NCBI RefSeq assembly: GCF_900111005.1
Contig: NZ_FOFV01000007.1
Coordinates: 62,001 to 126,000 of the forward strand
DNA length: 64,000 nt
Reading direction: 5' to 3'
Source: Lentzea albida
GTDB lineage: Bacteria; Actinomycetota; Actinomycetes; Mycobacteriales; Pseudonocardiaceae
Numbering within the stretch: position 1 is the stretch's first letter; the number at the start of each line of letters is the position of its first letter. Shown in pieces: positions 1-19,017 of this stretch. The position numbers and the translations under genes were made by a program. Below the pieces are notes generated by a model, which was not told the origin of the DNA, made no database searches, and worked only from the letters and a program-made list of their open reading frames with translations.

Positions 1-885
1 CTCAGCGCCGTTCCCGAGTCCGCGTGGGAGTTCGTGCGGGGCGACCTCTGCGACCCGCGGCTCGCCGCCGAGGTGATGCGCGGGGTCGACGTCGTCTTCC
101 ACCTGGCCGCCATCCACGGTGGACGGGGGTTCATCGAGCTGCACCAAGCCGCGTGCTCGCGGAACTTCGTGCTGGACGGCGTGGTCTCGCAGGCGGCGGT
201 CGACGAGGGCGTCGAGAACTTCGTGTTCGCCTCCTCCGGCTGCGTCTACCCGGTCGACCTGCAGGCTGACGTGAACGAGGAGGTGCGGCTGGCCGAATCC
301 CAGGTGGGGCCGCCCTTCCACGCGGACGGCATCTACGGCTGGGCCAAGCTGATGACGGAACAGCGGCTCGCCGCACTGCACGCCGAGCTCGGGTTCCCGT
401 CGGTGTCGTGCCGTCTGTTCACGGTCTACGGCGAGCGTTGCCCGGAAAGCCACGCCCTGACCGCCATGGTGGGCCGCGCGTTTCTCCGGCAGCAGCCCTT
501 CGAGGTCTGGGGCGACGGGACGCAGATCCGCAACTGGACCTATGTCACGGACATCGTGCGCGGTCTGGTCCTCGCGGGCGAGCGCGTCCACGACGGCAGC
601 GCGATCAACCTGGGCACCGAGGAGCCCATCCAGGTCGGCCAGGCAGCCAGGATGATCCTGGAGTTCACCGGCCAGGCCGACACGGAGATCAAGCCGTTGC
701 CGGACAAGCCGACCGGTCCCTACAACCGGGTCGCGTCCGCGGCGATGGCGCTCGACCGGCTCGGCTGGATGCCCGAGGTGCCGTTCCACACCGGTCTCAA
801 GCGGCTCACCGAGTGGTACTTCGAGTCGCGGCAGGCGGAGCGGATGACGACCGACGAGTTCGCCGAGCGGCTGACCACGAGGTAG
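1..885 (+). CDS. NAD-dependent sugar epimerase, 3,5-epimerase-like SDR (5' end outside window)
   Basis: The reading frame is open from the first base, so the N-terminus with the Rossmann glycine motif is missing; 294 residues remain. The extended-SDR Tyr-x3-Lys pair is at 334-336 (Tyr) and 346-348 (Lys). The usual SST motif is replaced by SSGCVYP, with Cys at 241-243, and a His follows in the stretch ESHALTAM (His at 451-453). Cys plus His at these places is the acid/base pair that GDP-fucose synthase uses for 3,5-epimerisation; plant GDP-mannose 3,5-epimerase has the same Cys and a Lys. The segment GGRGFIELH also resembles GDP-mannose 3,5-epimerase. The likely substrate is a GDP-hexose, which is inference. 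It leads an operon with an aldonolactone oxidase 2 bases downstream. It could also be a different nucleotide-sugar epimerase. Confidence 0.8.
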   Translation, partial: LSAVPESAWEFVRGDLCDPRLAAEVMRGVDVVFHLAAIHGGRGFIELHQAACSRNFVLDGVVSQAAVDEGVENFVFASSGCVYPVDLQADVNEEVRLAESQVGPPFHADGIYGWAKLMTEQRLAALHAELGFPSVSCRLFTVYGERCPESHALTAMVGRAFLRQQPFEVWGDGTQIRNWTYVTDIVRGLVLAGERVHDGSAINLGTEEPIQVGQAARMILEFTGQADTEIKPLPDKPTGPYNRVASAAMALDRLGWMPEVPFHTGLKRLTEWYFESRQAERMTTDEFAERLTTR

Positions 886-887
886 AG

Positions 888-2219
888 ATGGCCGACGCAC
901 CGCGGTCGACACCAGGCCGGGAGATCACCACCGGGGAACGCCGGCGCAAGGCGTGGGCCAACTGGAGCGGGGCGGTCCGCGGCATCGCGGACAGCCTCCT
1001 CTCCCCCGCCACCACGGACGAACTGCGCGAGATCGTGCTCGACGACGCCGCACGCGCACGTGGCATCGGCGTGGTGGGGTCGGGCCACTCCTACGCGGAC
1101 CTCGTCGCGCCGGCCGGCCGGACGCTGCTCGACCTGCGCCACCACCGCGGCATCGACACCGTCGACCCGGCGGCCATGACGGTCACGGTGCGGGCGGGCA
1201 CGACGATGCGCGAGCTGAACCAGGAGCTCGCCGCGGCGGGCTACGCGTTGCCGAACCAGAGCGCGATCGACGAGCAGACCGTCGCCGGTGTCGTGGCCAC
1301 CGCCACGCACGGCAGCAGCCCCGGACTGGGCACGCTGTCCAGCCACGTCGTGGCGGCGCGCGTCCTGACCGCGGACGGCCGGGTGCGCACGGTCACGCGG
1401 GACGACCCGGAGCTCGACGGGGTCCGCGTGCACCTGGGGTGCCTCGGCGTCGTCCTGGACCTCACCTTCACCGTCGTGCCCGGCCACCGGCTGCGCAAGG
1501 TCGTCCACCGCAAGCCGTTGCCCGAGGTGCTGGCCGATCTCGGCGCGTTCCGGGACGTCCACTTCGGTGGCTTCTGGTGGTACCCGCACACTTCTCAGGC
1601 GATCGTCTGGGAGGCCTCGCCGACGGACGAGCCACCGACACCGCCGCCGGCACGGCCCGGAGCGCTGCTCTCCCTGCTGTGCAACAACTCCTGGACACCT
1701 CGGATCGCGGGAGCCGCGCACTATGCCGCCGCTGTGGCCGCGGGGCGGGGCGGGGCGCGGGTCCTGCGCCGCGACGACGCACTGCTGCACCATCTCCCAC
1801 CGCCCGTGCAGGGCACCGAGTACAGCGTCCCGTTCGACCGGGCGGCCGACGCGATCCGCGCCCTGGTCGGGGAGGTGCGCCGAGGCGGGTTGCGCGTCAG
1901 TGCACCCGTGGACGTCCGTTTCACCGCCGCGGACACCGGCTGGCTCAGCCCGAGCAGGCAGTCCCCCACCTGCCACATCGGCGTCACACACCCCGTGTCG
2001 GCACACGATCCCCAGGGCTGGATCGCACCGCTGCGCGCCGCGGACTCGGTGCTGTGGGAGTTCGACGGCCGCCCCCACTGGGCCAAGGTCCACTTCAGGA
2101 CGGGCCGGGAGCTGGCCTCGCGCTACCCGGAGTGGGACCGGTTCCAGGAGCTGCGCAGGACCTGGGACCCGGACGGCGTCTTCCTCGGAGCGCATCTCCG
2201 CCGGCTCTTCGAACACTGA
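888..2219 (+). CDS. FAD-dependent aldonolactone oxidase (D-arabinono-1,4-lactone / L-gulonolactone oxidase family)
   Basis: The protein has 443 residues. The N-terminal FAD-binding (PCMH-type) domain carries GSGHSYADL and the segment ATATHGSS. The C-terminal ALO domain ends with the family signature HWAKVHF and a DPDGVFL motif. Family members oxidise aldono-1,4-lactones (L-gulono-, L-galactono- or D-arabinono-lactone) to ascorbate-like products using FAD, often with O2. The start ATG lies 2 bases after the previous stop, with the purine-rich GAGGTAGAG in front, so it is translationally coupled. No signal peptide is evident, so it is probably cytosolic. Together with the aldo/keto reductase of the same operon it could take a free aldose through lactone to an ascorbate analogue. 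The substrate is not shown by the sequence. Confidence 0.85.
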   Translation: MADAPRSTPGREITTGERRRKAWANWSGAVRGIADSLLSPATTDELREIVLDDAARARGIGVVGSGHSYADLVAPAGRTLLDLRHHRGIDTVDPAAMTVTVRAGTTMRELNQELAAAGYALPNQSAIDEQTVAGVVATATHGSSPGLGTLSSHVVAARVLTADGRVRTVTRDDPELDGVRVHLGCLGVVLDLTFTVVPGHRLRKVVHRKPLPEVLADLGAFRDVHFGGFWWYPHTSQAIVWEASPTDEPPTPPPARPGALLSLLCNNSWTPRIAGAAHYAAAVAAGRGGARVLRRDDALLHHLPPPVQGTEYSVPFDRAADAIRALVGEVRRGGLRVSAPVDVRFTAADTGWLSPSRQSPTCHIGVTHPVSAHDPQGWIAPLRAADSVLWEFDGRPHWAKVHFRTGRELASRYPEWDRFQELRRTWDPDGVFLGAHLRRLFEH

Positions 2220-2242
2220 CCCCCTTGGAGAAGCGGACGCTC

Positions 2243-3133
2243 ATGGCGATCAAGTTCGGCTACCACACCTGGTCCTACTCCAGCTTCGGCAGCTGGGTCC
2301 CCGCCTACACCCTGGACGAGACCATCAAGCGGCTGGCCAGGATCGGTTTCGACGGCATCGAGATCGGTGCCGCCGCACCCCACGCCTTCCCGCCGTACCT
2401 GAGCCCGGCCAGGCGGCGCGAGGTGCGCGCCCTGCTCGGCGACCACGGCATCGAGGTCTCCGGCATCGGCCCGGCGCCCACCGGCGGTCCCGGTTACAAC
2501 CCGAGCTCTCCCGTCGCCGAGGAACGCGCGGCGACCGTGGAGCACTACCGCGCGATCAACGAGCTGTGCGCCGAGTGGGGCGCCGGGTCGGTGGTCTACC
2601 TGCCCGGCTGGGTCGTGTTCGGCACCCGGCGGCGCCAGGCCTGGGCGTGGTCGCGCGAATGCCTGGAACAGATCGCAGATGACGCGGCGCAGTACGGCCT
2701 CACCGTGGTGGTCGAGCCGCTCGCGGAGAACTCGAACCTGTGCGAGAGCGGCGAGGACGCCATGGAGCTGATGGAGGACATCGCACGGCCCAACGTGAAG
2801 GTGATGTTCGACTGCAGCCACGTCCGCTACCGCCGCGAGTCGCTCACCGACCAGGTCCACCTGATGGGCGCGAACCTGCACCAGATCCACGTCGCCGACA
2901 CGACGGCCACCGCCACGCGGCTGCCAGCCGGCCGCGGTGACGAGGACTGGGAGGGCCTGGTCGACGCCCTGCTCGACACGGGCTTCGACGGCTACCTGAC
3001 AGCCGAGACGGGGTTCCACCGCCGGGGGATCGACCCCGACCACGACGCGCGGACCGGCCTCGCCTTCCTCAAGCCGCTGGTCGCCAGGAAGATCGCCGAC
3101 CGCGCGGCACTCGGCAACTCGACCGGGAGGTAG
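2243..3133 (+). CDS. Sugar phosphate isomerase/epimerase, xylose-isomerase-like TIM barrel
   Basis: The protein has 296 residues in the AP-endonuclease-2/xylose-isomerase-like fold. Candidate metal ligands appear in the usual order at strand ends: Glu in VVVEPLAE, Asp/His in MFDCSHV, His in HQIHVAD and Glu in YLTAETGFH. Family members interconvert ketoses and aldoses or dehydrate inositol-type sugars; substrate cannot be read from sequence. GGAG at 2227-2230 serves the ATG about 12 bases downstream. It sits third in the sugar operon, followed 7 bases later by a mutarotase, which suggests it handles a free or phosphorylated monosaccharide. Confidence 0.8.
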   Translation: MAIKFGYHTWSYSSFGSWVPAYTLDETIKRLARIGFDGIEIGAAAPHAFPPYLSPARRREVRALLGDHGIEVSGIGPAPTGGPGYNPSSPVAEERAATVEHYRAINELCAEWGAGSVVYLPGWVVFGTRRRQAWAWSRECLEQIADDAAQYGLTVVVEPLAENSNLCESGEDAMELMEDIARPNVKVMFDCSHVRYRRESLTDQVHLMGANLHQIHVADTTATATRLPAGRGDEDWEGLVDALLDTGFDGYLTAETGFHRRGIDPDHDARTGLAFLKPLVARKIADRAALGNSTGR

Positions 3134-3140
3134 CGCCACG

Positions 3141-3452
3141 ATGGAGACAGTCGCCCTGCACACCAGGCTCAAGCCCGGCCAGGAAGCGGCCTACGAGGCC
3201 GCGCACGCCCGGATTCCCGACGACCTCGATGCCGCGCTGCGTGCGGCGGGCGTGCGTTCGTGGCGGATCTGGCGCAGCGGCCTCGACCTGTTCCACGTCG
3301 TCGAGGTCGACGACTACGCGGCCATGATGCGGCAGATGCACGGTCACCCGGCCGACGTCCCGTGGCAGCGGAAGATGGACGAGTTCCTCGACGCCCCGCT
3401 CGACTACGACTCCGGCCGCTCGGACGCGAAGTTCGTGTGGGAGCTGCCGTGA
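3141..3452 (+). CDS. L-rhamnose mutarotase family protein (anomer interconversion)
   Basis: The protein is 103 residues, the usual size of the RhaM family, which are small dimeric alpha/beta (ferredoxin-like) proteins interconverting alpha and beta anomers of 6-deoxy sugars. His22, the general acid of characterised RhaM, is present at the same number in YEAAH. The family's C-terminal pattern, a hydrophobic residue followed by WELP, is also present. GGGAGG at 3126-3131 overlaps the upstream stop and precedes the ATG by about 9 bases. The stop overlaps the GTG start of the next gene (GTGA). A mutarotase beside an aldose 1-dehydrogenase makes sense because such dehydrogenases act on one anomer. 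Specificity (rhamnose, fucose, galactose) is open. Confidence 0.8.
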   Translation: METVALHTRLKPGQEAAYEAAHARIPDDLDAALRAAGVRSWRIWRSGLDLFHVVEVDDYAAMMRQMHGHPADVPWQRKMDEFLDAPLDYDSGRSDAKFVWELP

Positions 3453-4429
3453 TCTCCGGTCTCGGCCTCGGCGGGTCCGCACTGGGCAACCTGTACCGAG
3501 CCGTGTCCGAAGTGGACGCTCGTGCCACCGTCGACGCCGCGTGGCTTGCCGGCGTCCGGTACTTCGACACCGCACCGCACTACGGCCTCGGCCTGTCGGA
3601 ACGACGGCTCGGCGCGGCACTGGCGGACCGGCCCCGGTCGGAGTTCGTCGTCTCGACCAAGGTCGGCCGCCTGCTGGAGCCCTGCGACGCCGGCGGCGAC
3701 GACCTGGCCGACGGCTTCGCGGTGCCTGCCACCCACCGCCGGGTGTGGGACTTCAGCGCCGACGGCGTGCGCCGGTCGCTGGAGGCCTCACTGACCCGCC
3801 TCGGCCTGGACCGGGTCGACGTCGTCTACCTCCACGACCCGGACGACCACTGCGAGCAGGCGCTGCGCGAGGCGCTGCCGGCGTTGGCGGAGCTGAAGGC
3901 CCAGGGCGTGGTCCGCGGGATCGGCGTCGGGGTGAACCGGTGGCAGGTGGCCGAGCGGTTCGTGCTGGAGCACCCGCTGGACCACGTCATGCTGGCCGGC
4001 CGGTACACGTTGCTCGAACACGCCGCGACCGCAGGCTTCCTCTCGCGGTGCTGGGTGCGGGGAGTCTCCGTCGTGGCGGCCGGTGTCTTCAACTCCGGCC
4101 TGCTGGCCCGCGGCGAGGTCCCGGCCGACGCCACGCACGACTACACGACGGCACCACGCGCGCTACTCGACCGTGCCCGCAGGATCGCCGCGGTCTGCCG
4201 GCGGCACGGCATCCCGCTTCCCCAGGCGGCGCTGCACTTCCCGTTCGGGCACCCGGCGGTGCGCGCGGTCGTGGTCGGTGCCCGCACCGCGGCGGAAGTC
4301 ACCGAGAACGTCGCACTGGCCACCGGCCACGTGCCCGCCGCTCTCTGGTCCGACCTGCTCGCCGAGAACCTGCTTTCGGCGAACGTTCCCGTACCGCCGC
4401 CGAAGGCCGTCGAGAAGCCGACCGGCTGA
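3449..4429 (+). CDS. Aldo/keto reductase, aldose 1-dehydrogenase type (L-fucose/L-galactose dehydrogenase-like)
   Basis: The GTG start overlaps the mutarotase stop by 4 bases (GTGA), giving 326 residues. The AKR catalytic tetrad is visible: Asp40 and Tyr45 in FDTAPHYG, Lys71 in VVSTKVGR and His in VVYLHDPDD. The start lies right at GLGLGGSALGN, typical of the D-threo-aldose 1-dehydrogenase / L-galactose dehydrogenase / pyridoxal dehydrogenase subgroup. This subgroup oxidises the anomeric carbon of L-fucose, L-galactose or D-arabinose with NAD(P) to give a lactone. It is the last gene of the operon. It could serve L-fucose breakdown, or supply lactone to the aldonolactone oxidase at 888-2219. 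Confidence 0.85.
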   Translation: MISGLGLGGSALGNLYRAVSEVDARATVDAAWLAGVRYFDTAPHYGLGLSERRLGAALADRPRSEFVVSTKVGRLLEPCDAGGDDLADGFAVPATHRRVWDFSADGVRRSLEASLTRLGLDRVDVVYLHDPDDHCEQALREALPALAELKAQGVVRGIGVGVNRWQVAERFVLEHPLDHVMLAGRYTLLEHAATAGFLSRCWVRGVSVVAAGVFNSGLLARGEVPADATHDYTTAPRALLDRARRIAAVCRRHGIPLPQAALHFPFGHPAVRAVVVGARTAAEVTENVALATGHVPAALWSDLLAENLLSANVPVPPPKAVEKPTG

Positions 4430-4778
4430 TGCGCTCTCGGTCCTGCGCAGGAGCCACAGCGCGGCGAATGCGTGGGAGACGGCGAGGTAGGCGAAGCGGA
4501 CCAGCACGGCCGCGATCATGCCGGACGATGACCGTTACCCGACCAACGCCCTTGACCTGCACGGACGTATTTCTCGGCACGCACAACGCCACGCGTGCAG
4601 CGAAATGTCCTGGTGCGGCTCGATCGAGCGGACCGCGAGGTCCACTGTGGACTCATCGATCCCCACTCGCACGGACTCTGATCACCCTGCGGCGGGAGAA
4701 CCAGGATCGGAACCATCTGCGTGGGCGGTTCACACCTTCGGACGTGTCACCGCCAAGCGGCGATGACCTTCCCGGACA
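4430..4778. other. Gene-free stretch between convergent operons, with a transposase-like remnant
   Basis: No convincing gene covers this 349-base gap between the sugar operon and the two immunity genes. Its left third holds the short remnant listed separately at 4433-4519. The rest has mixed codon position composition on both strands, and I see no clear hairpin terminator in it. Confidence 0.5.
4433..4519 (-). pseudogene. Remnant of an integrase/transposase N-terminus
   Basis: Reading leftward from an ATG at 4519, the first 25 or so codons give VLVRFAYLAVSHAFAALWLL. This resembles the conserved start of a common actinomycete integrase-type transposase (pattern LxRLAYLxVTxxFAxLRLLP). After about 29 codons the similarity stops and the frame runs into the antisense of the aldo/keto reductase. 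I read it as a decayed fragment. The match rests on remembered family sequence and is short. Confidence 0.35.
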
Positions 4779-5222
4779 TCAGCCGTCCAGTCCGTCGAGC
4801 CCCCGCTGGAACCACTCGGGCATGTTCTCCGGCGTGCGCGGGAACCGTTCCTGGTCCAGGGCGAACTGCTCGCGAGCGGGCGGTGCCGGGAACGGCGGCT
4901 GGTCGTTCCAGTTGTACTGGATGGTGAACCGGTCCGGCGGCTGCACGATCAGCCGGAACGAGTACCAGGCCCCGCCGTCCGGTGTGTACATGCCCTGCCG
5001 CAGCGCGGAGAGCATCGGCGCGAGCTCTCGCGGCGCCGGGAACCGTTGCGTGCTGCCGTCCTGCAACCTGGCGATCGCACCGACGTTGACCTTCCTGCCC
5101 ACCACCATGTAGTCCATGATGATCCGCTCCCAGCCGGAGGGCGCCTGCCCGAGCAGCGTCTTGGTCGCCTCGCCCACCAGGTGGTGCTGCTCGTCCGGGG
5201 GCATCGGCGTGGGCGTTGTCAT
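4779..5222 (-). CDS. YezG-like immunity protein, copy 2
   Basis: The protein has 147 residues. The core GMYTPDGGAWYSFRL followed by an aromatic/acidic strand and a C-terminal helix ending in MPEWFQRGL matches the YezG/DUF600-type immunity fold that protects Bacillus against the nuclease toxin YeeF. It is paralogous to the gene just upstream and has exactly the same length. Its ATG overlaps that gene's stop by 4 bases. It is the last gene of the toxin operon. The expected role is to bind and block the nuclease tip of the toxin at 5652-9857, or of a related toxin from competitors. Function is inferred from weak family resemblance plus position. Confidence 0.65.
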   Translation of the reverse strand: MTTPTPMPPDEQHHLVGEATKTLLGQAPSGWERIIMDYMVVGRKVNVGAIARLQDGSTQRFPAPRELAPMLSALRQGMYTPDGGAWYSFRLIVQPPDRFTIQYNWNDQPPFPAPPAREQFALDQERFPRTPENMPEWFQRGLDGLDG

Positions 5223-5662
5223 CCGGGGATGGTCCTCTCGTCGGTAGGTCGGGGCAGCACGTCGAGCCGTTCACGCAGCCAGCCCGGGACGTGCTCGGCC
5301 GCCCTCGGGAAGGTCGCGAGGTCGCGGGCGAAGATCCAGGACGGGATGTCCGGGAACCATTGTGGATCATCGTCGTAGTTGAACCGGACCTCGGGCTCGT
5401 TTTCCCCGGTGAGCACGAAACGCGCCGAGAACCACGTGCCGCGCTGCGGCACGTACATCTCCGACCGCAGTTCGGCCAGGTCGGCTTCCGGTGCCCGGAG
5501 CGACATGTCCGGAGTGGAGCCGTCCGCCATGGTGACCGCGAACTCGGTCTGCACCAGGACGACCGTGGCCCAGACCGTGAACACGATCCGCCGCCAGCCG
5601 GGCGGAACCTCCCGCCGCACCGCCGCCAGCACGCGCGCGATCCGCTCGTCCTCACTCGCCAT
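5219..5662 (-). CDS. YezG-like immunity protein, copy 1
   Basis: The protein has 147 residues, the same size as its downstream paralogue. Shared core: EMYVPQRGTWFSARF, then FNYDDDPQWF, then VPGWLRERL near the C-terminus. The ATG at 5662 is preferred over one 12 bases upstream because AGGTG lies about 9 bases before it. The chosen start overlaps the toxin stop by 11 bases, which is typical of cognate toxin-immunity pairs. Family knowledge: YezG-type proteins neutralise Endonuclease_NS_2-type tips of LXG/WXG toxins. The two copies have diverged considerably, so one may target a different toxin tip. Confidence 0.68.
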   Translation of the reverse strand: MASEDERIARVLAAVRREVPPGWRRIVFTVWATVVLVQTEFAVTMADGSTPDMSLRAPEADLAELRSEMYVPQRGTWFSARFVLTGENEPEVRFNYDDDPQWFPDIPSWIFARDLATFPRAAEHVPGWLRERLDVLPRPTDERTIPG

Positions 5663-8600
5663 AGCGGGGCACACCTGACCAATCGCTGATTCCCATGTTC
5701 TCCGGGACGTTGACGAACGTGCGCTGGAACACCCTCACCCTGGGCTCCCCCGTCTCGGGGTCGGTGTCGCGAACGTGCCAGCGCATGACCTCTTCCGGTG
5801 CCATGCCGTCACCCTCGCGCCGCAGCACCTCGACCTCGAGCAGCTCCACGTCGTGGCCGTCCTGCTTCGCGTGGGCCGCGATCTGCTCCTCCTGCAGCCG
5901 CCACGATTCGGCACGCGTCCAGCCGTCGCGGTTGTTGCCGCTGTTGGAGGCCGCCATCTGGCCGTGCTGGTTGCCGTAGCCGCCGGGCGCGCCCGACTCC
6001 GTCGCCAGCAGGTGCCCGCCTGCCCACCTGACCTGGCGGTGGTCGGGGTGCGTGGCGTACGGCGTGCCGGTGCCGTCCTCCCGGCCGCGCCAGCCTTCGC
6101 GGGCGGCGCGGTTCTGGGCCGCCTGGTCCCGGTAGTTGTCGTCGGACGCACCGTACGACGGCTGACCGCTGGCCCGCACCGCCTGACCGCGCTCGTTGGT
6201 CTCGAAGTGCATGTGCCTGCTCGGGTCGCGCCAGTTCTCGACCCGGTACTGGCAGTTGGGCAGCACCTGGTTGAAATCCGGGTTGGTACCGGCCCTGGTG
6301 CCGTCCGGCGCGAGCTGGGCCCCCGGGCTCAGCTCCACCCACCTGATGGCACCGGCGCTGTCGGTGTAGAAGGTCGTCCGCGCGGCCACCTCGCCGTTCG
6401 CCCCGAGGTACTCGACGGGAATGGCGGTGTCCGGGCGCAACCGCCCGTTCTCGAACAGTTCCGGGTGGCCGCGCAGCGCTCGGGGCACCTGGTAGCGCTC
6501 CGGCAGGTCCCGGTTGAGCGGCGGGAACAGCGCCCGCGCCGGCATCTCGGTGCGGATGGTCGGGGCCGGGGAGTCCGGCGGCCGGTTGTAGGGGTTGTCA
6601 GGCGGGGAGGCGTCCGGGGCGCCGAGACCTGGCCGGTCGTAGTCGATGATCGGCCGGTGCAGGTCCGGATCGTCGGAGGAGACCTCGTAGTCGCCCCACT
6701 CCTCGTCCCAGTCCGTGTCGGCGTAGCGGTCCGGCCGGCCGTCGCCGTCCTGGTCCTCGTCGCCGGTGTCCCCGTCGCCGTCGCCCCGCGCACGTGCGCT
6801 GTCCGGGTCCGGCCGGTGCTTGTCGGAGTCCGGCGTGTCCGGTGTGAAGCCGTCTTCGCCGACGCGCGTCGACGTGCCGTCGGGCGAGTGCACGGACCAC
6901 TCGCCGGTCGGTGGGATCCGGGGACGGGTGCCGCCGTCCGGGCCGACCTCGTAGTCGGACGAGAACACCCGCCCGCCCGAGTCGGTCCACGCCGGCCGGT
7001 TGGGCGCCATGACCTCGGTGCCCAGCGCCTGCGCCAGGCGCGGCGCGAAGCCGTTCGCGCTCGCGTCACACCCGATCAGGCGGATCGGGCGGCCGTCGTA
7101 GTCGCCGCCGCGGCGCAGGACCTCGGCGAACTGCTCCGGGGTGTAGCGCCGCCCGCCGATGTTGGCGTGGCCGTCGGGGTCGATGTGCACGTCGACGGTG
7201 TACCGGCCGTCCGAGTCGGGCCGGACGCGCTGCGGCAGATCGCCCATGTCCGCGTCGCCGCGGTGGTAGGAGACTCCCGCCGGAGTCGGCTCCGCGTGCC
7301 GCTGGTTGACCTCGTCCGGCGACAGCGGACCGGTGTCGCGCGGCGCACCCGGACCACCGTCGGCGTCCTGGGACGTCGACGGATCGTGCTGGCCGGGTCC
7401 GTTCTGCCCGCTGGTACCGGGGCGCCGGCCGTTGTCGGGGAGTCCGGCGTGGTGTGGCTGGCCGCCGTGCGGTGGCGCGACCGGTCCACGTGCGACCGGC
7501 GACTGCGAACCGGCGTGATCCGGTCCGGCCGGACGCGGACCCGGCCCGCTGGCCGGACCGCGAGTGCCGGGGTGCGAAGGCGGTCCGGGCCGGTGCGGCG
7601 GCTGCGAACCGGCCGGGTCCGGGCGGCCGCGCGCGTGATCGCGTGGGCCGGGACCGTGCGGCGTGTTCGGTGCCGGGCTCCCCGGTGTGCCGGTCCACCC
7701 GGGACGGGACCCTGCCGAGGGGGAACCGCCTGTGCCGCCTGGACTTCCGGTCTGCGCGCCGCCCAGCGGCATTCCGCCCGCAGGCGGGAGGCCCGCCGGG
7801 GAGTCGGTGCCGCGGTGGGTGGGTGCGGACTGGCCTCCGGCCGGCCTCACGTCGGCCGGACCGGAGTGGAACGCAGGCCCGGTCGACGTCTCGGCGCGGG
7901 CCGTCGCGGTGGTGTGGTTCGCGGGGCCGTTCGGCATGGCGTGCGGTGCACCACCTGGGCCGTTGCCGTTCGGGGCGGGGCCGGTGGGGTGCGGGGCGCC
8001 GCTGGCAGGAGAGTGCGGCAGCGGGCCCGCGGCGTGCGATGGTCCGCCGAGGTTGCCCGGTCCGCTGTTGCCCGGCCCGCCGGGGTTGCCCGCGTTGCTG
8101 AAGTTCCCCGGCCCGCCAGGGTTGCCTGGCCCACCAGCGTTGGCCGGACCACCGGGGATGCCGGACCCACCGAAGTTGCCAGGCACACCAGCGTTGCTCG
8201 GTCCACCGGCATTGGCCGGTCCACCGGCGTTACCCGGCCCACCAGAGTTGCCCGCGCCGCCGAAGTTCCCAGGCCCGCCGGCGTTGCCCGGCCCACCAGA
8301 GTTGCCCGTGCCGCCGAAGTTCCCAAGCCCGCCGGCGTTGCCCGGCCCACCAGGGTTGCCCGTGCCGCTGAAGTTGGCCGGTCCCCCTGGGCTGCCGGAC
8401 GTTCCGGTGCCGACCGGCCCACCGGACGCAGGAGACCCGCCGGGTGAACCGTGCCCGCCCGGAGTGCCGCCACCGGCACCACCTGGCGCGGCCGGGGCGT
8501 GGCCTCCCTGCCCGCTCGGGCTGGGACCACCCGACGAGGGCTGGCTGCTCGGCCCACCCTGGGGGCTGGGCCCGTGCGCTCCGCCCGGCGTCGGACCCCC

Positions 8601-9857
8601 GAACCCGCTCGGACTCGTCGGCGCGAACCCGCCCGGCCGCGCACCGCCGCTCGACGGACCGCCGCTCGACGAGCTGCCACCGGACGGGCCGCCGCTGGGG
8701 GCGCCGCCCATCGGCACCCCGCCGCCCCCGAACGGAGCGGGTCCACCGGAGGTGGAGGAGCCGGGTTGGGACGGCGAGGACGGTGCGTGCGGGACGGGTG
8801 GAGCCGGCGGGGCGGCCGCCGCGGCACTGGTCTCGGAGTTGGTGGTGCTGCCCGGGGTGTTCGAGGGGCCCACGGGCGGCGCCGACGGGCCGCCGGACGG
8901 GCCACCGGGTCCGGCGGGAGGCCAGCCTCCGGGGCCGCCGGACGGTCCGGGAGGCGCTGCGGGCGGACCGCCAGGAGGCGGCGGGGCACCCGGCCCGTCA
9001 CCGATGCCGGGTGCCGTCGGAGCGTCGTAGTGCGACGTCGCCCCGCCGATCCCGCCGGATACGCCGCCGGAGACGCCACTGCGCGCGAGGTCGCCCGCGG
9101 TGATGTCCTCGCCGGTCACCGCCGCGTTCGCCACGGTGGAGGCGACGCCCTCGACGCCGCCGCGGACGGCGCCCTCGACGACGTTGCCGCCGAGACCGGT
9201 GGCCCTGGTCGGGACGAAGTCCATGCCGCCGCCGATCGCGCCGGAGATGGCTCCGGAGAGCGCGGCGCCGCCGGTCTTGCTCCAGTCCCAGCTCTTGCGG
9301 TCGCCCTTGGCCATCTGGATGCCCTGGATCGCCGCGTCGATGGCGACCTCGGTGAGCATCTCGCGCAGGATCGCGGTGATCAGCTTGCGGAAGATCATCT
9401 GGACGGTGATGCGGGTGGCCGCCTGGGCGATCGGGATGCCCGCCGTGGACGTGCCGAACGTGCCGAAGGCCGCCGCGACCAGGGCCGCGATCTCGATGGC
9501 GAGCATGATCAGCGCGGCGATGATGGCGTACTTGGCGTACTCCACCTCCAGCGCGGTGTTGTCGCACGAGCCGGCGAGGCCGTCGCAGGACTTCTTCAAC
9601 TTCACCAGGTAGGCGTCCGCGCCGTCGACGAACTTCTTCCAGTACTCCTGGAAGGAGTCGGCGGCCTGGCCCTCCATGGCGCCGAACGACTTCGTCGCGG
9701 CGTTCCCGGCCTGCGTGATGACCTCGTCGATGTCGGCGGACGCGGCCCGCCAGGCATCGCCGAGCGCCCTGAGCTTGTCCTCATCGCCCTCGGGCCAGCT
9801 CTCGCCGACGACGATGGGGAACAGCCAGGTGATCTCCGGTGGAATGGTGATCGACAT
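5652..9857 (-). CDS. WXG100-like polymorphic toxin with C-terminal DNA/RNA nuclease-like tip
   Basis: The protein has 1401 residues. About 1-105 is a helical WXG100-like/CpnT-type N-terminal domain. About 108-140 is a hydrophobic segment. About 280-900 is Pro/Gly-rich, with a tandem Gly-Gly-Pro-Gly-Asn array near 480-605. About 885-990 is a compact domain with LIGCDASANGF. About 1015-1065 is strongly acidic. About 1195-1401 is the toxic tip. The tip contains WAGGHLLATESGAPGGYGN with His1282, like the G-GH motif of the Endonuclease_NS_2 family, followed by an Asn-rich stretch. Such proteins leave by type VII secretion; no secretion machinery is encoded here. The gene follows a WXG100 gene and precedes two immunity genes. 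Active-site assignment is by motif only. Confidence 0.8.
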   Translation of the reverse strand: MSITIPPEITWLFPIVVGESWPEGDEDKLRALGDAWRAASADIDEVITQAGNAATKSFGAMEGQAADSFQEYWKKFVDGADAYLVKLKKSCDGLAGSCDNTALEVEYAKYAIIAALIMLAIEIAALVAAAFGTFGTSTAGIPIAQAATRITVQMIFRKLITAILREMLTEVAIDAAIQGIQMAKGDRKSWDWSKTGGAALSGAISGAIGGGMDFVPTRATGLGGNVVEGAVRGGVEGVASTVANAAVTGEDITAGDLARSGVSGGVSGGIGGATSHYDAPTAPGIGDGPGAPPPPGGPPAAPPGPSGGPGGWPPAGPGGPSGGPSAPPVGPSNTPGSTTNSETSAAAAAPPAPPVPHAPSSPSQPGSSTSGGPAPFGGGGVPMGGAPSGGPSGGSSSSGGPSSGGARPGGFAPTSPSGFGGPTPGGAHGPSPQGGPSSQPSSGGPSPSGQGGHAPAAPGGAGGGTPGGHGSPGGSPASGGPVGTGTSGSPGGPANFSGTGNPGGPGNAGGLGNFGGTGNSGGPGNAGGPGNFGGAGNSGGPGNAGGPANAGGPSNAGVPGNFGGSGIPGGPANAGGPGNPGGPGNFSNAGNPGGPGNSGPGNLGGPSHAAGPLPHSPASGAPHPTGPAPNGNGPGGAPHAMPNGPANHTTATARAETSTGPAFHSGPADVRPAGGQSAPTHRGTDSPAGLPPAGGMPLGGAQTGSPGGTGGSPSAGSRPGWTGTPGSPAPNTPHGPGPRDHARGRPDPAGSQPPHRPGPPSHPGTRGPASGPGPRPAGPDHAGSQSPVARGPVAPPHGGQPHHAGLPDNGRRPGTSGQNGPGQHDPSTSQDADGGPGAPRDTGPLSPDEVNQRHAEPTPAGVSYHRGDADMGDLPQRVRPDSDGRYTVDVHIDPDGHANIGGRRYTPEQFAEVLRRGGDYDGRPIRLIGCDASANGFAPRLAQALGTEVMAPNRPAWTDSGGRVFSSDYEVGPDGGTRPRIPPTGEWSVHSPDGTSTRVGEDGFTPDTPDSDKHRPDPDSARARGDGDGDTGDEDQDGDGRPDRYADTDWDEEWGDYEVSSDDPDLHRPIIDYDRPGLGAPDASPPDNPYNRPPDSPAPTIRTEMPARALFPPLNRDLPERYQVPRALRGHPELFENGRLRPDTAIPVEYLGANGEVAARTTFYTDSAGAIRWVELSPGAQLAPDGTRAGTNPDFNQVLPNCQYRVENWRDPSRHMHFETNERGQAVRASGQPSYGASDDNYRDQAAQNRAAREGWRGREDGTGTPYATHPDHRQVRWAGGHLLATESGAPGGYGNQHGQMAASNSGNNRDGWTRAESWRLQEEQIAAHAKQDGHDVELLEVEVLRREGDGMAPEEVMRWHVRDTDPETGEPRVRVFQRTFVNVPENMGISDWSGVPRYGE
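8041..8410 (-). repeat. Tandem coding repeat: Gly-Gly-Pro-Gly-Asn units inside the toxin
   Basis: Imperfect repeats of about 18 to 36 bases encode runs such as GGPGNAGGPGNFGG, roughly residues 480-605 of the toxin. The same DNA reads as collagen-like Gly-Pro-Pro on the other strand, but the minus-strand gene has the proper context. Short, near-identical units make copy-number change by slippage likely. The array probably forms a flexible linker between the secretion domain and the toxic tip. Confidence 0.7.
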
Positions 9858-16957: not shown

Positions 16958-17695
16958 GTGGTCGAGACGCACGACATCGTTCGCCCGCCCGCCGAGTTCA
17001 GCGAGGCCCTCGCGGCCCTCGGCAGCGCGACGGCCAGCGCGGAACTGAGCCGCATGGGCATCCGCAGCGCGTTCATCAGCGGTCCCGTGTCGGTGACGCC
17101 CGGTGTGCGCGTCGCCGGCCCGGCGCTGACGTTGCAGTTCCTGCCGAAGCGGGAGGACCTCTACCCCGTCGACGAGTACGCCGAGCCGGAGAAGCAGTTG
17201 CACCGCCACGTGATGTACCACGCCCAGCCCGGCGACATGATCGTCGTCGACGCGCGCGGGGACATGGACAGCGGCGTGTTCGGCGAGATGATGCTGACCT
17301 ACTTCAAGGGCCGCGGTGGCGTCGGCGTCGTCGTCGACGGGTGCCTGCGCGACACCGGCGAGGCGAAGAAACTCGGTCTCGGGCTGTGGATCCGCGGTGC
17401 CACACCGAACTTCCACGCCCAGACCGGCATCGTCCCGACCGCCGTCAACGTGCCGGTGGCGTGCGGCGGCACGCTCGTCGAGCCGGGGGACATCGTCGTC
17501 GCCGACGACGACGGGGCGGTCGTGGTGCCCGTCAAGCTCGCGCCGGCGCTCATCGCCGCCGCCCAGGAACACGCGGAGTGGGAGGAGTTCTCCCGGATCC
17601 GCTTGTCCGAGGGTGGTGACCTGCGGCTGTACTACCCGCTGTCGGACGAGGCGCGGCCGGAGTACGAGCGGTGGCGGGCCGAGCAGGGGCGTTAG
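16958..17695 (+). CDS. RraA family protein (HMG/CHA-type aldolase-like)
   Basis: The GTG start is chosen for GAGGGAG at 16943-16949, 8 bases upstream; 245 residues. Conserved core: GDMIVVDARGD, then VVVDGCLRD with the Arg-Asp pair used by 4-hydroxy-4-methyl-2-oxoglutarate aldolases. The C-terminal half ends VADDDGAVVVP. The family includes RNase E inhibitors, but actinomycetes lack the E. coli system in that form and most members are pyruvate-releasing aldolases or oxaloacetate decarboxylases. Next to acid-sugar dehydratase genes it could cleave the resulting 2-oxo acid. It is convergent with the dehydratase gene at 17755. Confidence 0.75.
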   Translation: MVETHDIVRPPAEFSEALAALGSATASAELSRMGIRSAFISGPVSVTPGVRVAGPALTLQFLPKREDLYPVDEYAEPEKQLHRHVMYHAQPGDMIVVDARGDMDSGVFGEMMLTYFKGRGGVGVVVDGCLRDTGEAKKLGLGLWIRGATPNFHAQTGIVPTAVNVPVACGGTLVEPGDIVVADDDGAVVVPVKLAPALIAAAQEHAEWEEFSRIRLSEGGDLRLYYPLSDEARPEYERWRAEQGR

Positions 17696-17706
17696 CGTTG
17701 TGGCGC

Positions 17707-17735
17707 AGCACGTCGGCGCGTCACGCCGGCGTGCT
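17707..17735. terminator. Hairpin between convergent genes
   Basis: AGCACGTCGGCG (17707-17718) pairs with CGCCGGCGTGCT (17724-17735), one mismatch, with loop CGTCA. There is no T-run on either side. It stands 11 bases after the RraA-like stop and before the dehydratase stop, so it may end transcription from both directions. Confidence 0.5.
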
Positions 17736-17754
17736 GGGCCACCTAGGCCGTCTC

Positions 17755-19017
17755 CTAGCTCCACAGGCGGTCGTGGCTCGCCTCACCGTCCCAATGCGAC
17801 GTCTCGGCGAAGAACACCGGATCGCGCGGGTCGAGGTGGCGTTGCAGCACCTCCTCGTCGAGGTCGCCGAACCCCAGCCCCGGCGTGTCCGGCACCGCGA
17901 TGTGACCGTCCTGGATCAGCGGGCGGGGCAGGCCGGTGACGAGGTCGCTCCAGAACTCCACCTCGGCGGCGTGGTGTTCGAGCGCGAGGAAGTTCTCCGT
18001 GGCGGCGGCGAGGTGCACGCATGCCATGGTCGCGATCGGTGACGCGGCCAGGTGCAGGGCCATCGGGATGCCGCGTTCCTGCGCGTGGTCGCCGATCCGC
18101 TTGGTCTCCGCGATCCCTCCCGCCGTCGCCGGGTCCGGGTGCACGACGCGGATGGCGCCGGTGTCGAGCAACGGGCGGAAGCCGTCGAGCAGGTAGATGT
18201 CCTCCCCCGTGCACGTCGGGACGGCGACGGATGCGGTGAGCCGCCGCCACTGGTCGGTCAGCTGCCACGGGATCAGGTCCTCGATCCACGCCAGCGTGAA
18301 GTCCTCCAGCGCGCGGCCGATCCGGATGCACGAGTCGAGCGCGATGTGGCCGAAGTGGTCGGCCGCGAGCGCGACGTCGTAGCCGACGACGGAGCGCACG
18401 GTGTCCACATAGGACGCGAGATGGTCGACTCCCTTCGCGGTGACCTGGATGCCGGTGAACGGGTGCATCGTCGTCAGGTCCGCACGGGCGCCCTTCGGCG
18501 CGATCAACGCTCCCGGCACGTCCCACAGCAGATCGATGCCCACGTCCATCTTCAGCATCGTGAACCCGCGCTCCTTGCGCTCCAGCAACCGGGCGCCCAT
18601 CGCGTGCGGGTCGGGCAGCGACGGCGTGTCCGCGTAGCAGCGGACCTCGTCGCGGAACCGGCCGCCGATCAACGCGTGCGCGGGCACCCCGTAGGCCTTG
18701 CCGGCGAGGTCCACCAGCGCCATCTCGACGCCGGAGACCCCGCCGCCCTGCCGTCCGTGGTGCCCGAACTGCTTGATCTTGCGGAAGACCTTGTCCAGGT
18801 TGCAGGGGTTCTCCCCCACCAGGCGGCTCTTGAGCACCAGCGCGTAGGTGGCGCTGGCCTGGTCGCGCACCTCCCCGTAGCCCGCCAGGCCCTGGTTCGT
18901 GTCGATCCTGATGATCGACGAGCGGAACGGCACGCCGGCCACGTTCGCGACCCGCAGGTCGGTGATGCGCAGGTCGCTCGGCCGGGACCCCTGCGGCACG
19001 TGCTCCTCGGTGATCAC
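17755..19017 (-). CDS. Enolase-superfamily (mandelate racemase/muconate lactonizing type) acid-sugar dehydratase
   Basis: The protein has 420 residues. The N-terminal capping domain is followed by the barrel domain. Metal ligands are visible in order: Asp in LAADHFGH, Glu in AWIEDLIPW, Glu in CTGEDIYL; a base/acid His is in MALHLAASP. The Asp followed by His two to three residues later (ADHFGH) is typical of the mannonate/gluconate-dehydratase-like subgroup, which removes water from aldonic acids to give 2-keto-3-deoxy acids. The start ATG overlaps the fused permease stop by 4 bases, so it is the last gene of the transport operon 22444 to 17755. Substrate unknown. Confidence 0.8.
   Translation of the reverse strand: MITEEHVPQGSRPSDLRITDLRVANVAGVPFRSSIIRIDTNQGLAGYGEVRDQASATYALVLKSRLVGENPCNLDKVFRKIKQFGHHGRQGGGVSGVEMALVDLAGKAYGVPAHALIGGRFRDEVRCYADTPSLPDPHAMGARLLERKERGFTMLKMDVGIDLLWDVPGALIAPKGARADLTTMHPFTGIQVTAKGVDHLASYVDTVRSVVGYDVALAADHFGHIALDSCIRIGRALEDFTLAWIEDLIPWQLTDQWRRLTASVAVPTCTGEDIYLLDGFRPLLDTGAIRVVHPDPATAGGIAETKRIGDHAQERGIPMALHLAASPIATMACVHLAAATENFLALEHHAAEVEFWSDLVTGLPRPLIQDGHIAVPDTPGLGFGDLDEEVLQRHLDPRDPVFFAETSHWDGEASHDRLWS

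Follow-up and report, generated by a model that had tools for sequence, protein, structure and literature searches.

Could an actinomycete carry its own route to vitamin C, or to something close to it? The question is raised by bases 1-4429 of a 64,000-nucleotide stretch of Lentzea albida DNA (the window; C15:62001-126000 of a 9.44-Mb genome), where five genes lie in a row on the + strand, encoding a short-chain dehydrogenase/reductase (SDR), an ALO-family flavoenzyme (ALO), an AP_endonuc_2 TIM-barrel protein (TIM), a RhaM-family mutarotase and an aldo-keto reductase (AKR). To our knowledge pathways of vitamin C synthesis are known from plants and animals and have not been established in bacteria. 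An earlier examination of these letters, which we call the sequence-only reading, had likened the gene set to the plant route from GDP-mannose to ascorbate. On the basis of protein families, active-site residues and gene neighbourhood we favour, tentatively and with somewhat less than even confidence, the view that these genes, together with a Nudix gene upstream of the window, may allow a bacterium to convert a nucleotide hexose into L-ascorbate or a closely similar compound; that the product would be ascorbate itself is something we infer. Relative to the sequence-only reading the case for release of the sugar from GDP has become stronger, and the family memberships given to the AKR and the epimerase have had to be corrected.

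A recurrent operon and its Nudix gene

The five-gene operon is real. Its junctions range from a 4-base overlap to 23 bases: the SDR stop at 885 is followed by the ALO ATG at 888, the ALO stop at 2219 by the TIM ATG at 2243 and the TIM stop at 3133 by the RhaM ATG at 3141, and the GTG of the AKR at 3449 overlaps the RhaM stop at 3452. No internal stops occur in the four complete genes, the SDR gene starts with an ATG 147 bases upstream of window base 1, and Pfam scores of all five proteins are far above the family cut-offs (Table 1). Genes were called with our own GC-frame script, which short or unusual genes may escape. The coupling of the five genes, as originally proposed, is borne out by the junctions, by the Pfam scores and by recurrence in a second copy and at other loci, and a chance neighbourhood is ruled out by conservation in eight loci.

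The second copy is found in the same genome on contig C17, with 90% DNA identity over bases 1-4429 and the five genes in the same order. Both copies are stop-free and under purifying selection, with dN/dS (nonsynonymous over synonymous rates) between them of 0.12 for the SDR, 0.34 for ALO, 0.16 for TIM, 0.05 for RhaM, 0.32 for the AKR and 0.27 for the Nudix gene, and their SDRs are sisters in the tree described below (97/97). The same gene order is seen at four further Lentzea loci, which brings the genus to six copies spread over five genomes, and a core of Nudix, SDR, ALO and TIM recurs in two other genera, in a Streptomyces (locus L034) and in genome G231 (locus L026). A match to the SDR at E <= 1e-40 is present in 9 of 297 genomes of the family; six of the nine, this genome included, reach at least 75% identity (five of the 24 genomes listed as the same genus, plus G231 of another genus) and the other three are at 36-38%. 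Searching 84,980 species for two peptide patterns, a scan that is not exhaustive, returned 17 loci, comprising four Lentzea again, Streptomyces sp. NBRC 110028 (87%), ten family members (46-61%) and two distant ones.

The sequence-only reading had held that the DNA upstream of base 1 could decide the matter and had thought of a phosphorylase or phosphatase there; extending the contig did supply a candidate gene for sugar release, its product being a Nudix protein that resembles GDP-mannose mannosyl hydrolase (Gmm). The gene is present at all eight cassette loci, divergent and before the SDR in the six Lentzea copies and in Streptomyces, and running the same way as the SDR in G231, where the Nudix TGA overlaps the SDR ATG. 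The best PDB match is the E. coli GDP-mannose mannosyl hydrolase (E 1.1e-7, with 5e-5 for the next kind), and the family NF011963 for that enzyme is the best of seven NCBIfam matches at 41.7 bits, below its cut-off of 146. The Nudix box reads RTAEQESG (RTAEQE[SC]G in 8/8) as against the canonical RExxEExG, so that both variable glutamates are lost, and the same two are lost from the box of E. coli Gmm, RLTMAELG. In an alignment with the latter, an Asp, the KRT Arg, GGR, the Glu of the box and a His near the end are all retained in the cassette protein. Among 30 Nudix matches in the genome 22 have a readable box and 19 of these are canonical, the remaining three being the two cassette genes and one other (L146) that has likewise lost both Glu. 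According to a passage in PMC5389931 loss of box residues marks GDP-sugar glycosyl hydrolases, and also IPP isomerases and others, while an excerpt from PMC10037897 gives GDP-mannose, GDP-glucose and, poorly, GDP-L-fucose as substrates of E. coli Gmm. The Nudix protein is thereby a candidate for the step from GDP-sugar to free sugar, with cleavage predicted on the carbon side.

The SDR, the aldo-keto reductase and the oxidase

The SDR has the extended fold of its superfamily, with Ser/Tyr-x3-Lys, and the catalytic residues C130, Y161, K165, H200 and R292, of which C130 and R292 align with C145 and R306 of GDP-mannose 3,5-epimerase (GM35E), where the Arg acidifies the catalytic Cys. Cys, His and Arg are found in 28/28 rows of the SDR's own family, a mixed residue set when compared with the Cys and Lys with Arg of GM35E and the Cys and His with Lys of GDP-fucose synthase, as set out in a portion of PMC8787198. 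The E. coli enzymes GalE, RfbB and Gmd are without the Cys/His pair; E. coli Fcl has it in common with our SDR and carries, where the SDR has Arg, the Lys that acidifies Cys. These residue counts took 7 of 13 GM35E rows, and row L041 of the family was truncated at its stop codon. A 49-row tree, midpoint rooted, with long branches flagged and L090 left out, puts the SDR family, GM35E and E. coli Fcl on one side (100/99), and GalE, RfbB, Gmd and five other SDRs of this genome on the other, so that the grouping with unrelated NDP-sugar enzymes, which the sequence-only reading had named as an outcome that would refute it, is not what is observed. An ordinary GalE/RfbB/Gmd type was rejected on the same two grounds, different active-site residues and separation in the tree. 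An argument from the NAD-binding Asp was dropped because that column holds Asp in E. coli Fcl too, and this residue therefore does not discriminate.

A structural model of the SDR built from 31 rows has a predicted local distance difference test score (pLDDT) of 92.7 (an earlier 7-row model, at 51.4, was not used). Its VIA-align ranking places five GM35E entries first, with Z of 42.6-42.7 and rmsd of 1.9-2.1 over 329-331 residues, the next entry being at 39.8. In its kept residues and this best structural match the SDR does resemble a 3,5-epimerase of nucleotide sugars; the original description of a 3,5-epimerase-like SDR stands in these respects and fails as to clade and catalytic base, as discussed below. 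True GM35Es, at E <= 1e-55, occur in 18 of 246 sampled Actinomycetota genomes and are absent at that threshold from this one, where none of 12 matches to GDP-fucose synthase is above cut-off either.

The best PDB matches of the AKR are L-galactose dehydrogenases, in line with the plant subgroup to which it had been assigned. In a tree that took in three of the six cassette AKRs and six of the ten further AKR matches, it nevertheless groups with six L-fucose-type paralogues (100/100), and plant L-galactose dehydrogenase falls on the other side (100/100). Contig C22 of the same genome carries an AKR and a RhaM that are 61% and 59% identical to the cassette pair, in a row with best matches to L-fucono-1,5-lactonase (194 of 400 bits) and a diketo-acid hydrolase (311 of 500), an MR/MLE dehydratase, an SDR and a sugar-binding protein. 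By content this row is an L-fucose-type operon, with none of its matches above the NCBIfam cut-off. The paralogy of both RhaM and AKR with this pair points to L-galactose stereochemistry. L-fucose breakdown, one of the alternatives first entertained, would thus account for the origin of the AKR and mutarotase and not for the present operon.

An independent assembly of similar parts is found on a contig of the metagenome-assembled genome Cyanobacteria bacterium RYN_339 (L035, a single contig, its taxonomic binning unchecked), where an SDR, an ABM-domain protein, an ALO, an AKR and a glycosyltransferase follow in a row at 1762-6334. The SDR is 61% identical to ours and sister to the cassette SDRs (96/82). 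The AKR, which in the tree above lies with the plant enzyme, matches plant-type L-galactose dehydrogenases at E 9.5e-76 (other AKRs, 9.4e-22 or worse), and the ALO is above the TIGR01679 cut-off (327 of 292 bits). A search for the plant-type AKR in the phylum of L035 gave 1 of 292 genomes, L035's own. Comparison of the cassettes with L035 indicates that this SDR clade, ALO and an L-galactose-type AKR have been brought together with different AKR types.

The wider Cys/His/Arg family of SDRs (L036-L043, L045, L061-L070) is widespread, lies mostly among glycan genes as judged by reading, and has residues between those of GM35E and GDP-fucose synthase; the flanks of L045 and several others are short or at contig ends.

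Membership of the oxidase in the ALO family was correctly recognized at the outset, as its Pfam ALO score (PF04030) attests, and FAD_binding_4 adds 90.6 bits. Its motifs are GSGHS, DVR and RPHWAKVH, with Ser at the position of the gatekeeper Ala of L-galactonolactone dehydrogenase (GALDH); neither these motifs nor the low scores reported below discriminate between an alditol and a lactone as substrate. The cassette enzyme forms a third ALO group in the genome, beside an AldO-like protein (L050) and a paralogue (L047). The latter (C22:189-956) adjoins a gene whose product, by reading, resembles PLP proteins of the alanine-racemase type, an arrangement like that of Rv1769-Rv1771 in mycobacteria, L047 presumably being Rv1771-like.

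The nearest solved relatives of TIM are ketose 3-epimerases, and four putative metal ligands, Glu-Asp-His-Glu, align with D-tagatose 3-epimerase. The ligands are kept in six loci. In L. aerocolonigenes (L025:7051-7866) the protein is shortened by 24 aa including one ligand Glu, and in NEAU-D7 (L023, about 7905-8335) the gene is fragmentary; either the gene is dispensable or the assemblies are in error. Among 296 Actinomycetota genomes the only relatives at E <= 1e-45 are the two copies of this genome.

Surroundings of the cassette copies

The window copy is located between a WXG100-domain protein and, upstream, a 4778-aa protein with a weak Gly_transf_sug match (L008:2-14338), hence, as far as can be read from sequence, between two very large proteins of apparently secreted type. 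The WXG100-domain protein and the small open reading frames (ORFs) beside it look like a polymorphic-toxin locus with immunity-like genes (Table 1). No genes of polyketide synthase (PKS) or nonribosomal peptide synthetase (NRPS) type, and none of the other biosynthetic neighbours described next, were seen near this copy in the stretch read. Other copies have different flanking genes. Those of C17, NRRL S-836 and L. aerocolonigenes have as neighbours a glutamate decarboxylase (for C17, 504 bits against the TIGR01788 cut-off of 380) and a 2018-aa fusion, with homologues in L022 and L025 that are 85-90% conserved in two other Lentzea, which is predicted to make and reduce a glyceryl group on an acyl carrier protein (ACP). 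Ketosynthase, acyltransferase and ketoreductase (KS, AT, KR) genes lie near the cassette in L024 and, by reading, in L127, and the G231 copy adjoins NRPS and PKS genes. In listings of openly licensed PMC papers we found neither an operon like the cassette nor an FkbH-AdhE fusion.

Two genes of this genome resemble GDP-mannose 4,6-dehydratase (GMD); at 392 and 390 bits they fall narrowly short of the cut-off of 415. Four of the seven other cassette genomes have GMD-like genes as well; at E <= 1e-60 none is found in the remaining three (G272, G286 and G231), which are 99-100% complete, and none was seen by reading the cassette flanks. A GDP-L-galactose phosphorylase (VTC2) and an L-Gal-1-P phosphatase are missing from the cassette, no genome search having been made for them.

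Table 1. Positions of the cassette genes and of other features referred to in the text; plain numbers are window positions
Feature	Position	Strand	Basis or remark
SDR, putative NDP-hexose 3,5-epimerase (343 aa in full)	1..885 (3' part of gene)	+	Pfam Epimerase 118 bits
ALO-family FAD oxidoreductase, putative aldonolactone oxidase/dehydrogenase, 443 aa	888..2219	+	Pfam ALO 147 bits
AP_endonuc_2 TIM-barrel sugar isomerase/epimerase, 296 aa	2243..3133	+	Pfam 156 bits
RhaM-family mutarotase, 103 aa	3141..3452	+	Pfam rhaM 69.8 bits
AKR, putative L-galactose/L-fucose-type aldose 1-dehydrogenase, 326 aa	3449..4429	+	Pfam Aldo_ket_red 168.7 bits
Nudix gene, outside window	L009:983-1456	-	read upstream of SDR
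1401-aa protein	5652-9857	-	Pfam WXG100_2 domain 131 bits
Two small ORFs after 1401-aa protein	5219-5674, 4779-5222	-	no Pfam match
2018-aa fusion: SDR, FkbH, ACP, AdhE bifunctional aldehyde/alcohol dehydrogenase	L010:12210-18266	+	FkbH 295 of 147 bits; AdhE 1229 of 951
Two GMD-like genes, one 20-kb stretch of C34	L125:5271-6308 and 17014-18045		type I PKS start after second

A putative route, its rivals and known systems

In the route that we propose the SDR would epimerise GDP-D-mannose at C5 and C3 to GDP-L-galactose, or at C5 only to GDP-L-gulose, through transient oxidation at C4 and with Cys130 and His200 as the acid/base pair. The Nudix enzyme would then hydrolyse the GDP-sugar at carbon to GDP and the free sugar, one step in place of the plant phosphorylase and phosphatase, RhaM would interconvert the anomers, the AKR would oxidise C1 to give an aldonolactone and the ALO-family flavoenzyme would oxidise C2 to give an enediol lactone; the TIM-barrel enzyme may act before or after this last oxidation. 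For copies with PKS/NRPS genes next to them, the product may serve as precursor of a natural product. D-mannose is suggested as the starting sugar by the combination of an L-fucose-type AKR, 3,5-epimerase residues and a GDP-hexose hydrolase match, because inverting D-mannose at C3 and C5 gives L-galactose, and at C5 alone L-gulose. The most far-reaching form of the proposal would credit bacteria with a complete L-ascorbate pathway of their own. Its 3,5-epimerase of NDP-hexoses would belong to a new class with a Cys/His/Arg active site, a Nudix enzyme acting as glycosyl hydrolase would take over from the phosphorylase and phosphatase of plants, and a lactone oxidase would complete the set. The genes would form an operon in actinomycetes, where the product would feed natural-product assembly as well, and also in a lineage of the cyanobacterial phylum, there joined by an L-galactose dehydrogenase of plant type. 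In so broad a form we regard the proposal as doubtful.

A number of observations weigh against the ascorbate route. The SDR lies outside the GM35E clade, its family (99/96) being separate from the GM35E rows (99/98), and His occupies the base position in 28/28 family rows, as against Lys in 7/7 readable GM35E rows. Foldseek ranks GM35E first with the archaeal Mth375 epimerase nearly level, and by sequence Mth375 is the best PDB match (124.5 versus 114.5 bits). Most SDR relatives are in loci without ALO or AKR: among 20 family loci outside the cassettes (L035-L043, L045, L061-L070) only L035 has both, L043 showing a distant 24% FAD-oxidase match. The Nudix score is far below the NCBIfam cut-off and two Gmm active-site positions, Tyr and Gln, are changed. 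The cassette AKR, being paralogous to an L-fucose operon enzyme, is not of plant type, and both RhaM and AKR are missing from the Streptomyces and G231 cassettes, with one and two AKR paralogues, respectively, elsewhere in these genomes. At 261.6 bits the oxidase is under the TIGR01679 cut-off of 292.25, its best PDB match is the alditol oxidase AldO (4.5e-38, versus 4.9e-24 for GALDH), and its tree branch is weak (57/59), GALDH being the sole characterised lactone enzyme in a tree that included 6 of 8 cassettes and in which one row (strep) carried extra sequence before its start, with a single stop in that lead. Finally, the plant route has no step for the TIM enzyme, and the TIM gene is damaged in two Lentzea copies.

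The last point recurs in an explanation which we consider unlikely, if by no means negligible, in which the cassette makes a modified sugar or sugar-lactone unit for a PKS/NRPS natural product, with TIM and the oxidase turning an L-sugar into a keto-sugar or deoxy unit and with an end product other than ascorbate. The core does keep a TIM gene that the ascorbate route does not need, and copies outside the window adjoin biosynthetic genes, namely a megaenzyme and glutamate decarboxylase in three loci, KS/AT/KR in L024 and L127 and NRPS/PKS in L026. However, the window copy has no PKS gene by it in the stretch read, both copies of this genome are under purifying selection, the neighbours differ between loci, and L035 has SDR, ALO and AKR with no PKS genes in 12.8 kb. 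A 6-deoxy version of the pathway would begin with GDP-4-keto-6-deoxymannose from GMD, which the SDR would convert to GDP-L-fucose, the 6-deoxy form of GDP-L-galactose, leading through L-fucose and L-fuconolactone to 6-deoxy-ascorbate. The Cys/His pair of the SDR, the paralogy of AKR and RhaM with L-fucose enzymes, the neighbouring gmm, fcl and gmd of E. coli and the two GMD-like genes noted above are all in keeping with it, and yet the SDR has Arg in place of the Lys of Fcl and scores 71.5 of 500 bits for GDP-fucose synthase (NF047922), and the absence of GMD from three near-complete cassette genomes (each at least 99%), and from the flanks read, speaks against GDP-fucose as the source of substrate. 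A GDP-fucose route was rejected as our principal interpretation for the lack of GMD in these 3 of 7 genomes, and we assign the 6-deoxy pathway a small probability.

Were the cassette to serve the breakdown of L-galactose, L-fucose or D-arabinose, the SDR and Nudix genes being adjacent but unrelated to it, the descent of AKR and RhaM from a catabolic operon type would be readily understood. We think this improbable: the cassette has no lactonase, dehydratase, aldolase, sugar-binding protein or ABC-kind sugar transporter (an MFS-like gene is seen, by reading, in L026 only), unlike the C22 operon, and in the cassettes that have neither AKR nor RhaM, Nudix and SDR still accompany ALO and TIM. Equally little credence is given to the possibility that the oxidase is an alditol or aldose oxidase and that the set acts on D-sugars or pentoses, for instance converting D-arabinose to D-erythroascorbate. 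AldO is, to be sure, the best PDB match, and enzymes of the L-fucose dehydrogenase kind often take D-arabinose, though those described in PMC6946681 and PMC11293516 are SDRs and not AKRs. Such a route leaves SDR and Nudix with no role, and the cassette and L035 oxidases differ from AldO rows at several alignment positions (for example DVR versus EIR, and RPHW[AG]K[VI]H versus RPHWGK[VL]F).

With a cassette of six genes that would lead from GDP-hexose to an ascorbate-type lactone, a single heterologous expression could put the question to a direct test. The Nudix shortcut, if true, would be a compact component for the fermentation of vitamin C or L-galactose, and new L-sugar epimerases could come from the Cys/His/Arg SDR family.

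Each component has a counterpart among known systems. With GM35E and GME the SDR shares the fold, the catalytic triad, Cys and Arg and the best structural match, and it differs in having His for the Lys base, in its separate clade and in an identity of ~28-33%; bacterial GM35Es include those named for the bleomycin and A201A pathways in a section of PMC6678494. GDP-L-fucose synthase (GMER, Fcl) has the Cys/His pair in common with it, and E. coli fcl adjoins gmm much as the SDR adjoins a Gmm-like Nudix gene, whereas the Arg beside Cys and the low family score set the two apart. Gmm (WcaH) is the best match of the Nudix protein and has lost the same two box glutamates, with Asp, Arg, GGR and His kept in both; 29-34% identity, a score below the family cut-off and the altered Tyr and Gln positions distinguish them. 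The oxidative L-fucose pathway has an AKR and mutarotase pair about 60% identical to that of the cassette, together with the lactonase, dehydratase and sugar-binding protein that the cassette is without. Mycobacterial L-gulono-1,4-lactone dehydrogenase (Rv1771) and AldO share the ALO family and GSGHS with the cassette oxidase, and for these types the genome has separate paralogues (L050 with AldO), the cassette enzyme making up the third group. The Smirnoff-Wheeler pathway of plants, finally, also combines a GDP-hexose epimerase, an aldose 1-dehydrogenase of the AKR superfamily and a VAO-type aldonolactone oxidoreductase. In the cassette, by contrast, Nudix stands for GDP-L-galactose phosphorylase and phosphatase, the SDR has Cys/His, the AKR is of L-fucose-operon type, a mutarotase and a TIM-barrel enzyme are added and all are gathered in one operon, so that by analogy the cassette would work like the plant route and not be a copy of it.

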